Program-made: the position numbers and the translations under genes
Shown here: positions 5,228 to 50,586 of the stretch, one piece after another
How positions within the stretch are numbered: position 1 is the first letter of the stretch
Layout of the letters: the number at the start of each line of letters is the position of its first letter
From: Desulfitobacterium metallireducens DSM 15288
GTDB lineage: Bacteria; Bacillota; Desulfitobacteriia; Desulfitobacteriales; Desulfitobacteriaceae
Reading direction: 5' to 3'
NCBI RefSeq assembly: GCF_000231405.2
Contig: NZ_CP007032.1
Location: 2,604,001 to 2,668,000, forward strand
Length of the DNA stretch: 64,000 bases
The notes under the pieces: generated by a model
The model's input: the letters and a program-made list of their open reading frames with translations, nothing else
What the model was told of the DNA's origin: nothing
The model's database searches: none

Positions 5228-5384
5228 AAACATATCACCGTTTTATCCCTCTGTCCTGGTCCATAATGGATACAGGCAGTAAAATTCAATTATTGGATTC
5301 CATAAAGGTGCAGTTCCAATGATACTGCCCAAACTGAGTATACCAGATATTTTCTAACTCGACTACCATCGTTTCTGCCTAATC

Positions 5385-7911: not shown

Positions 7912-8166
7912 TAAAAAATAATAAGCCCCCATCCCTAAAGGGACGAGAGCCTGCTCCCGTGGTACCACCCAATTTCAATACGCACTTCGTCGCTTTTAAC
8001 GGCTCGCACCGGCGTCCATTGTGACCTGGACACTGCTCCAGGGTGAGTTCACCAAGTTCTCAGTGCAGCTCGCACCACCCGCTGCCTCTCTTCACCCGAG
8101 TTCTTAGTTACTATTCCCTTTCTACGCTTTAGGATTATTCACTCATAATTAAGAAAAAAATATTTT
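7912..8166 (-). ncRNA. T-box leader controlling leuS
   Basis: T-box leaders sense uncharged tRNA and switch between terminator and antiterminator. The conserved core GGTGGTACCACG lies at 7958-7969 on the minus strand. The terminator (GCTCTCGTCCCT/AGGGATGGGGGC, 7925-7950) ends in TTATTTTTT. A long helical stem I region follows the promoter, with an AGTA motif near 8113 and a GAACTCACC stretch where CTC (8045-8047) is a plausible leucine specifier. The specifier call is inference from position. Confidence 0.9.
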
Positions 8167-24079: not shown

Positions 24080-24181
24080 ATTAATTACACCTCCCATTGC
24101 CTAGACTCGCCTGTGCAGGCCAGTTTTTTCAAACTTGTTCAATGCCTGATTCGCGCGGTTGCGGTGAGAAGTCACCACATT
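24080..24181 (-). ncRNA. Candidate L21 leader (autoregulatory mRNA leader)
   Basis: The about 100-base leader of rplU contains GGTGACTTCTCACC (a hairpin near 24165-24178), and GGCCTGCACAGGCGAG just before the ribosome site, which resembles the conserved part of the Rfam L21 leader as I remember it. L21 or a partner would bind it. The call is from memory of the motif and from position. Confidence 0.55.
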
Positions 24182-27127: not shown

Positions 27128-27652
27128 GTATCTTCACCTGCTTTGTTTTCTTTCCTATCACTGTGCCGGGGCTATTTTGAAAGAGGCTTTTTGGGTCTTT
27201 AGGAGACGAACCAGAGTTTGCGAAGGGGAGGCGTTGCTTGCGTTCACTGCTCCCCTATGCTTTAAGTCTTCGCTCACCAAATCGTTTCGCCTGTCTATGT
27301 AGCTTTCATAACGTTATATCTCAAGAAGCCCCGAAAGCGTAGCTTCTCGCATAGAAGCGAACGATTCGCGTAGGGACGTGCAGGTGAACGAAGCTTTCTT
27401 AGCGTAGCGAAGCCCTTGGTTCACATCAGGTATTACCCTGAGGTTTGGCGAAGCTGCTATGAAAGCAAAGTGAACCAGTCCCGAAGCGCCTGAGTGAGTG
27501 GATATGCGATATAGAAGACTTGGCTTAGAGTTGAGGTACGAAACTCAAGGCTTAGTCGACTTATCCTCGAAGGGGAAAAGCTACACGACCCAGACTCTTT
27601 ATCATCTAACGATACTGTACACTGACATGCAAAGCTGCAGAATAGGAATCGA
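27128..27652. other. Repeat-rich gap inside the men cluster, no gene
   Basis: No coding region is supported here. It holds a full copy of the dispersed repeat (27327-27522), a hairpin AGGGGAG/CTCCCCT (27224-27256) and fragments such as GCGTTCACTGCTCCC and ATCGTTTCGCC that look like inverted pieces of the same repeat. No clear terminator follows menB. Confidence 0.7.
27327..27522. repeat. Dispersed intergenic repeat, copy between menB and menE
   Basis: Starts AGCCCCGAAAGCGTAGCTTC and runs to about 27522. The 44-base core at 27417-27460 (TGGTTCAC ... AGCTGCTAT) differs at only 2 positions from 38788-38831. The core contains TCAGG-tattac-CCTGA, a small hairpin. Flanking parts are also alignable but more diverged. 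No reading frame runs through it. Confidence 0.85.
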
Positions 27653-37776: not shown

Positions 37777-37825
37777 ACCGAAACCTCCTCCGTCAGACAC
37801 TTCTCCAAAAGAATGACTAAAGGTG

Positions 37826-37847
37826 ACCCGAAAGCGTAGCTTACGAT
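37826..37847. repeat. Fragment of the dispersed repeat between spoIVFA and spoIVFB
   Basis: GTGACCCGAAAGCGTAGCTT closely matches the left end of the 27327 copy and 811-830. It reaches to the last base of the spoIVFA stop codon, so the repeat end touches the coding region. Confidence 0.55.
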
Positions 37848-38695: not shown

Positions 38696-38888
38696 AGCCC
38701 ATAAAACGCAACTTCTCGCCCAGGAGTGAACGATTTCGCAGAAGGGCGGTAAGGCGCACGACGCTTCTGTAGCTTAGCGTAGCCACCTGGTTCACTTCAG
38801 GTATTACCCTGAGGTTTGGCGGAGCTGCTATAGAGGCAAGTGTGGCAGCCCTGGAGCGCTGAGTGAACGGATGAGTGAGAAGTTACGT
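38696..38888. repeat. Dispersed intergenic repeat, copy downstream of rodA
   Basis: About 190 bases alignable to 27327-27522, with the 44-base core at 38788-38831. Its ends are imperfect inverted repeats: ACGCAACTTCTCGC (38706-38719) against GTGAGAAGTTACGT (38875-38888). The right end touches the rodA stop codon. The structure is like that of a miniature inverted-repeat element. Confidence 0.85.
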
Positions 38889-40051
38889 CAAAACATCAAT
38901 CGCTGTCGTCTGATATTAATGCTTAATAAAAGGCCTATACTTATCATATTGGTCAACATCGCACTTCCGCCATAACTGATCAAAGGAAGAGGAATTCCCG
39001 TAACAGGCATAATTCCAGAAGTCATTCCAACATTTACAAGAATATGAAAAACGAACATACTTATGACTCCACTACTCACGAGCATTCCATATATATCCTG
39101 CGATTTTGTGGCTATACTAATCGCGCGAAGTAAAAACATTGCAAATAAAAACAGTAACGTAATCGTTCCAATAAATCCGAACTCTTCTCCCACCACTGAA
39201 AAAATAAAGTCCGTATGATGCTCAGGCAAGAAGTTGAGCTGAGCCTGAGTCCCTCCGCGATAGCCCTTACCCCACAAACCTCCCGAGCCAATAGCCCAGA
39301 TCGATTGTATGATATGATACCCATCTCCTGAGGTATCAGACATCGGATCCATAAAGATCGTCAAACGCTTCAACTGGTAATCCTGTAAAGGCAGAGGGAG
39401 ACCTTGTGCAAATTTCAGAAAGCCGGGTAAATCGGTTGAAAAGTGTAACCATAAGATAAGGGCAACAAGTAAAATACCGCCGACCAAAAGTCCTCCAAAT
39501 TTCCAAGGATTAGCCCCCGCCACAAACATCATCCCCACAAAAATCGCGGCAAAAACTAAAGTCGTACCTAAGTCAGGTTGTTTAAAAATAAGAGCCATCG
39601 GCACAACAACATACAAAAAGGGCGGAATAAAATCACGAAAACGGTTCAACTTACCTTGCCGTCTGGCTAAAAAATCAGCAAAAGTTAAGATGATAAAAAT
39701 CTTGGCAAACTCGGAAGGTTGAATTTTAAAACCTGAGGTCACCGGAATCCAGCGTTGCGCCCCTTTGGCAGAGGACCCTATGAAAAAAACAGCAAGCAAC
39801 AAGGCAAGATTCAAACCATAAATCCACCAACTATACTTTCTAAACTTTTGATAATCAATCGAAGCAACTCCAACGGCAATAACAAGCCCAACACCAATCC
39901 ACATTGCCTGGTTCTTTACATAAAAATACGGTTGAGAAGCGATAACATTCAAGGATGCTGTACTCAAGATCAATAAGCTAGCACCCAAAAGTAGTAAAAG
40001 AATAAATACAAAAAGAAAATCTAGATTCTTAAAGAAGCGTCGCTCAAACAT
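38888..40051 (-). CDS. rodA: RodA, SEDS peptidoglycan glycosyltransferase
   Basis: RodA polymerises glycan strands for side-wall growth together with PBP2 (mrdA, 2 kb upstream in transcription order). The 387 residues have about ten membrane helices and the SEDS signatures GFKIQPSEFAKIFIILTFAD, LKFAQGLPLPLQDYQ...LTIF, WGKGYRGGTQAQLNFLPEHH (with the family's FxPExxxDFIF), and VTGIPLPLISYGGSAMLTNM near the end. AAAGGGGT precedes the ATG by 7 bases. Confidence 0.95.
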   Translation of the reverse strand: MFERRFFKNLDFLFVFILLLLLGASLLILSTASLNVIASQPYFYVKNQAMWIGVGLVIAVGVASIDYQKFRKYSWWIYGLNLALLLAVFFIGSSAKGAQRWIPVTSGFKIQPSEFAKIFIILTFADFLARRQGKLNRFRDFIPPFLYVVVPMALIFKQPDLGTTLVFAAIFVGMMFVAGANPWKFGGLLVGGILLVALILWLHFSTDLPGFLKFAQGLPLPLQDYQLKRLTIFMDPMSDTSGDGYHIIQSIWAIGSGGLWGKGYRGGTQAQLNFLPEHHTDFIFSVVGEEFGFIGTITLLFLFAMFLLRAISIATKSQDIYGMLVSSGVISMFVFHILVNVGMTSGIMPVTGIPLPLISYGGSAMLTNMISIGLLLSINIRRQRLMF

Positions 40052-50508: not shown

Positions 50509-50523
50509 TAGCCACTCTCTATT

Positions 50524-50580
50524 CTGAAAAAGACAGAAACCCGACCACTTTCAAAGTGATCGGGTTTCTGTCTTTTTCAG
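50524..50580. terminator. Long bidirectional terminator between convergent genes
   Basis: Arms of 27 bases (50524-50550 and 50554-50580) differ from perfect pairing at one position, with a 3-base loop. The A-rich and T-rich parts (GAAAAAGACAG / CTGTCTTTTTC) let it stop transcripts from both the KimA-like gene and the aminotransferase gene. Confidence 0.93.
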
Positions 50581-50586
50581 ATTCTT

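Follow-up and report, generated by a model that had tools for sequence, protein, structure and literature searches.

Small folded repeats of the ERIC and BOX type have been known for decades, and to our knowledge there is no proof of how they move. Site-specific internal insertions occur in ERIC, and the bcr1-type repeats of Bacillus cereus are folded, dispersed repeats of about 155 nt in a Firmicute. The BOX elements (boxA-boxB-boxC) of Streptococcus pneumoniae and S. suis are modular, composite, folded intergenic repeats with no known transposase, which are likely selfish and have proliferated in the past (PMC3049150). Furthermore, the ERIC (IRU) and YPAL (RU-2) repeats of enterobacteria are intergenic imperfect palindromes of about 125–170 bp; they are transcribed with their neighbours and can alter mRNA stability, and their mobiliser is unproven (PMC2229807). 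In addition, REPs are 20–40 bp long, and GTAG repeats have been reported in Proteobacteria, Cyanobacteria, Chloroflexi and the PVC group (PMC3733652).

Copies in the window and in the order

The window analysed was a stretch of 64,000 nucleotides from the 3,176,073-base genome of Desulfitobacterium metallireducens DSM 15288. The original prediction had noticed two related intergenic copies of about 190 bases, at 27327–27522 and 38696–38888, and had read them as a MITE or a structured non-coding family. Both copies were present, with cores (27417–27460 and 38788–38831) which differed at 2 of 44 positions and were 90% alike when compared across 52 nt. The covariance model R1 matched the window at 27328–27521 with 162 bits and at 38697–38893 with 210 bits.

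The copy at 38.7 kb (38696–38888, plus strand) was a full rod element of type 1, complete except for its last ~5 nt (GACCC). Its apical core motif, GGTTCACTTCAGGTATTACCCTGAGGTTT, was located at 38789–38817, and the 5' arm of its outer stem at 38707–38722 (helix 1 of alignment A1, described below), with the partner at about 38874–38887. For the copy at 27.3 kb, the predicted 3' limit had to be moved, since 27522 was not the end: the 3' arm was interrupted by a plug-in hairpin of about 66 nt (module B, 27510–27575, plus strand, found at about nine other places in the genome), beyond which the actual 3' tip, AAAAGCTACACGACC, started from 27576. The whole interrupted element, also a full rod of type 1, spanned 27327–27590 on the plus strand, with the apical core motif GGTTCACATCAGGTATTACCCTGAGGTTT at 27418–27446. 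It was adjoined at 27216–27290, on the minus strand, by part of a divergent relative of the element ('type 2'). This piece was 82% alike over 65 nt to G000:C1:2486814-2486878, which falls within a type 2 element of this genome that has the same core and occupied 2486692–2486884 (L026).

The shorter pieces that had been listed with the two copies proved to be related, both being 5'-end fragments of the element on the plus strand. The one at 811–855 was a truncated relic, with 84% likeness between 812–842 and 27330–27360 and a weak model match (810–865, 13 bits, E 0.03). The other was a solo 5' tip, ACCCGAAAGCGTAGCTTACGAT, at 37826–37847, where 37817–37842 was 85% alike to 27320–27345. A search of the whole window against Rfam gave no match to the element at gathering score, and in a permissive search of eight copy-bearing loci nothing at the element reached that score. 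Elsewhere in the window, Rfam matches at gathering score were a T-box leader (7936–8133), a pan motif (5247–5331) and a ribosomal protein L21 leader (24093–24170), all on the minus strand.

A simple duplication, with only two copies in the genome, was clearly refuted, because BLAST with the 38.7-kb copy as the query returned 31 matches in the D. metallireducens genome, the longer ones 69–89% identical, and R1 placed 23 full or near-full copies there (E<1e-10). The two window copies are members of a genuine dispersed family of strongly folded repeats of about 200 nt, which has at least 23 copies in this genome. BLAST matches were obtained in 28 of the 61 genomes searched. Among the genomes of the order, R1 matched 52 of 74, covering 16 of 22 genera (Desulfitobacterium, Desulfosporosinus, Paradesulfitobacterium and others), where no more than 34 candidates were scored in each genome. 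When up to two mismatches were allowed, the core pattern was found in 33 of the 74 genomes, against none for the reversed-pattern control. The copies bearing it numbered 81 in G027, 52 in G025, and 38 each in G012 and G008, and relatives held up to roughly a hundred copies. Several genera of the same order were without the element. In a sample of 299 genomes from the phylum, the core was limited to three members of the same family and was absent from every sampled genome outside it. Moreover, no element was found in the phage and plasmid sets, no exact core pattern in the viral contigs, and, in the literature searched, nothing relevant on repeats of Desulfitobacterium or Desulfosporosinus. As far as sampled, the family is restricted to one bacterial order.

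Anatomy and covariation of the rod

The unit of about 195 nt began with GACCyGaaAGCGTAGCTTCTCGCACA and ended with TGTGCGAGAAGCTACAcGACCC. From the ends inwards, the rod consisted of a 15-bp outer stem, short helices with small loops, an 11-bp and a 3-bp helix, a GCC/GGC closing helix, and an apex of 29 nt, GGTTCACnnCAGGTATTACCnnGAGGTTT, which was nearly invariant. The best-conserved part was the apex together with the internal loops, not the terminal repeats. These loops were purine-rich and stayed unpaired across genera, and their opposed strands (GUGAAC against GUGAAC, GGA against GGA, and GNA against GNA) would, on our reading of the sequence, allow sheared G·A pairs. The outer stem varied in sequence between genera (for instance, GTAGC to GGCAGC) and kept its pairing; in alignment A1, 96% of its cells were paired.

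Departures from this plan were also observed. In two D. metallireducens copies, L324 (2757685) and L326 (2327489), the apex hairpin was replaced by GCAGAAAGCAGAAGGG-type sequence and the rest of the rod was retained. Positions 1012–1387 of L361 held three tandem mini-elements of 85 nt with a spacing of 145 nt, in which the outer stem and the GTGAACG loops were present and the whole core was missing. Furthermore, Paradesulfitobacterium (L049 and L050) and the genomes of family f3 carried the same core within rods of very different arms.

Alignment A1 comprised fourteen uninterrupted D. metallireducens copies in 200 columns and was not fitted to the model. At least one double compensatory change was found in 28 of its 52 pairs, including 11 of the 15 pairs of the outer stem. 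The shuffled controls gave a mean of 8.3, with none of 500 shuffles reaching 28, and sliding the partner by 1–3 columns gave 4–7. In alignment A3, which contained 41 sequences from many genera and was fitted to the model, and hence leans towards it, 45 of the 52 pairs had double changes, and 95% of cells were paired versus 31–40% in the slid versions. The second half of the original prediction, a structured non-coding family, was thus strongly supported, and the folded shape has clearly been kept by evolution.

The two strands were compared at the pairs predicted on both. In 30 foreign sequences, G·U events outnumbered A·C events by 24 to 9 (P = 0.014), and in the D. metallireducens copies by 13 to 6 (P = 0.17), a moderate bias drawn from related sequences. 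The mean folding energy was −84.5 kcal/mol for the core strand versus −72.9 kcal/mol for the opposite strand. The core strand appears to be the folded, selected form, because G·U outnumbered A·C on it and it folded better.

In a quasi-palindrome, mismatches are repaired by template switching from one arm to the other, and this can mimic compensatory change. The covariation could in principle be mutational in this sense and the repeats inert, as all the pairs lay inside one long inverted repeat, where the process operates. However, it would erase internal loops, and it is disfavoured because the loops were unpaired and conserved across genera; the excess of G·U over A·C on one strand is not predicted by it either. 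We consider a mutational origin of the covariation extremely improbable.

Insertion sites, modules and genomic context

Several copies were absent from orthologous sites. L235 of G012, which we take to be D. dehalogenans, was missing at the orthologous site of G004, where TTTGTCAA was directly followed by TGAACTAAAAATCC and both flanks were conserved. No target duplication was seen at this junction, the only one precisely readable, the other sites being too diverged. L234 of G012 was also missing from G004, and G012 in turn lacked L244 of G004. In addition, Paradesulfitobacterium (L059) and Desulfosporosinus sp. FKB (L060) had no counterpart of the 38.7-kb copy at the orthologous place, where only a terminator lay between the same two genes. 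In a single FastTree tree, read for topology only, the copies grouped by genus or genome. The lineage clustering together with the orthologous empty sites indicates that the family has multiplied within lineages, and thereby supports its mobility. Absence at orthologous sites could partly be deletion, and although insertion and deletion were not separable at every site, gains are favoured because the amplification is lineage-wise.

The intergenic place of the 38.7-kb copy also held other repeats in relatives. A core-bearing rod with different arms lay in L069 (3190–3381), 3' of the orthologue of the gene preceding that copy, possibly reflecting a repeat hot spot or an independent insertion. 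Just past position 3155 in L062, L063, L064 and L068, a Desulfosporosinus repeat, TTCGAGGTTCGAGG, with an inverted partner was found at the same place.

GACCC was present at both ends of the element, and GACC was conserved on both sides as a direct, not an inverted, repeat. Its interpretation as a target duplication was rejected because the same letters recurred at nearly all sites and in other genera. Outside GACC, the true partner flanks paired better than swapped ones (P = 0.0008), an effect to which roughly half of the copies contributed; it may reflect either that the element entered hairpins already present or that it owns an outer stem, as L235 suggests. Locus-specific inverted repeats extended beyond the GACC ends in L004, L008, L011 and L016.

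A conventional MITE would be an internally deleted insertion sequence whose terminal inverted repeats are recognised in trans by a DDE transposase. The terminal inverted repeats of about 15 bp, the size, the intergenic dispersal and the shared GACCC all suit it. However, the terminal stem varied with compensation while the middle was fixed, the GACC repeat was direct, and the L235 junction lacked a target duplication. Moreover, no D. metallireducens copy enclosed a gene between element ends, as all BLAST and model matches were element-sized or fragments, and no matching transposase was found. A MITE in the usual sense, the first half of the original prediction, was therefore not borne out; it is a weak reading and in our judgement distinctly unlikely.

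Weaker still, and very unlikely, is a REP/BIME-like element, which a Y1 (IS200/RAYT) transposase would mobilise as a single-stranded hairpin. It agrees with the GTAG hairpin foot in Desulfitobacterium, the GACC conserved on both sides and the single-strand fold, and RAYT-like Y1 genes of about 250–300 aa were present in many relatives. However, a Y1 gene was absent from the D. metallireducens genome and from G025 with its 52 cores, and none of the 36 Y1 loci examined had an adjoining core or element end. The unit was also far from a REP hairpin of 20–40 bp with a GTAG foot, the foot being GTAG in Desulfitobacterium and GCAG in Desulfosporosinus. The Y1/RAYT mobiliser was rejected on the gene's absence and the Y1 loci, though loss of the enzyme could still reconcile it with the data.

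Many copies were truncated or interrupted. Besides module B (about 66 nt), which was seen in one or the other arm of the outer stem, the D. metallireducens genome contained module C (about 55 nt, just before the apex) and module D (about 58 nt, on the 3' side). The modules were inserted at set loops and present in some copies only. Module B of the 5' arm was the reverse complement of its 3'-arm form, which would follow from entry into a short target shared by the two arms. Desulfitobacterium copies carried different modules at different loops; upstream there was often a linker and a second rod (CCAGGATTTTGCTTTAC...GTAAAGCAAAATCCTTGG) unrelated to the element. In L222, L242, L246, L248, L250 and L254 (G012 and G004), this second rod, which had plug-in modules of its own, was seen within the initial ~450 bases of the element's strand, often directly upstream of the element. 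The family might be a mobile element recognised by the three-dimensional shape of its folded strand (the invariant apex and the non-Watson–Crick loops) and not by its terminal sequences. It would have been spread by some enzyme, perhaps by way of RNA as in the SINEs of eukaryotes, and would itself be a landing platform for smaller hairpin modules, mirror-image at fixed loops; such an element is unlikely.

The claim that all copies are intergenic was confirmed, as no long ORF was interrupted at the 25 D. metallireducens places examined. About 20 of these lay between co-directional genes, 3 between convergent and 1 between divergent genes, with 1 undetermined (by simple ORF calls, with no enrichment implied), and the orientation of the element relative to the flanking genes was mixed. 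The stop codon of a 387-aa gene on the minus strand was immediately followed by the 38.7-kb copy, which lay upstream of the terminator hairpin of that gene. Another intergenic feature of the window was an inverted repeat of 29 bp at 50523–50581, 97% perfect with a 1-nt loop, which is probably a strong bidirectional terminator.

The location in 3' UTRs and between co-directional genes, the preferred strand, and the compensatory changes with fixed loops and apex across genera are also what a family of regulatory or structural RNA genes might present. Its transcribed hairpin would be useful (in mRNA 3'-end protection, as an RNase processing site or as a protein-binding RNA) and its copying incidental. 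Against such a role stand the mixed orientation, the genera of the order without the family, the empty orthologous sites with lineage-specific copies, and the many truncated or interrupted copies. We regard a family of such RNA genes as rather unlikely.

Nature of the family and comparison with known folded repeats

We lean towards a non-autonomous repeat that was amplified within lineages, is selected in its folded, single-stranded form and spread as a structure-recognised element. Each strand of about 195 nt folds end to end into a rod, with covarying helices, purine-rich loops and the nearly invariant apex on top; a mobilising protein, or copying through a folded intermediate, would read the apex and loops, not the terminal tips. 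The mobiliser may have been lost from the D. metallireducens genome. Copies in 3' UTRs or between co-directional genes would be transcribed along with their neighbours, and the resulting stable hairpins would influence the ends and the stability of the mRNA. Judged from the sequences, a selfish, shape-recognised, co-transcribed element receives the most weight, above a dedicated regulatory RNA.

The family combines clean covariation and phylogenetic depth inside a single order with a nearly fixed 29-nt apex that can serve as bait, several complete genomes with tens of copies, and empty orthologous sites. Two questions thereby become directly testable: the identity of the protein that binds the apex, and the RNA or DNA nature of the folded strand. 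Furthermore, R1 provides an annotation model, missing from Rfam, for repeats in organohalide-respiring and sulfate-reducing Firmicutes.

Compared with known systems, the family resembled REP/BIME in the GTAG foot, the hairpins and the mosaic arrays with linkers in Desulfitobacterium. It was different in its length of about 195 nt and in having no RAYT association. Like the bcr1-type repeats, it is folded and dispersed in a Firmicute, a likeness of general description. BOX and ERIC may be considered the closest analogues in behaviour, with no homology implied. The likeness to ERIC/IRU and YPAL, one of behaviour alone, lies in the intergenic imperfect palindrome; these repeats belong to different bacteria, and the terminal TA motif of many such repeats (not YPAL) was not seen here. 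BOX is likewise comparable by behaviour alone, as a modular, folded intergenic repeat of Firmicutes with optional modules. However, BOX has its modules arranged in tandem, as blocks flanked by boxA and boxC, whereas the present family is built as one rod with a fixed 29-nt apex, whose modules sit in set loops and also occur as mirror images in the two arms.
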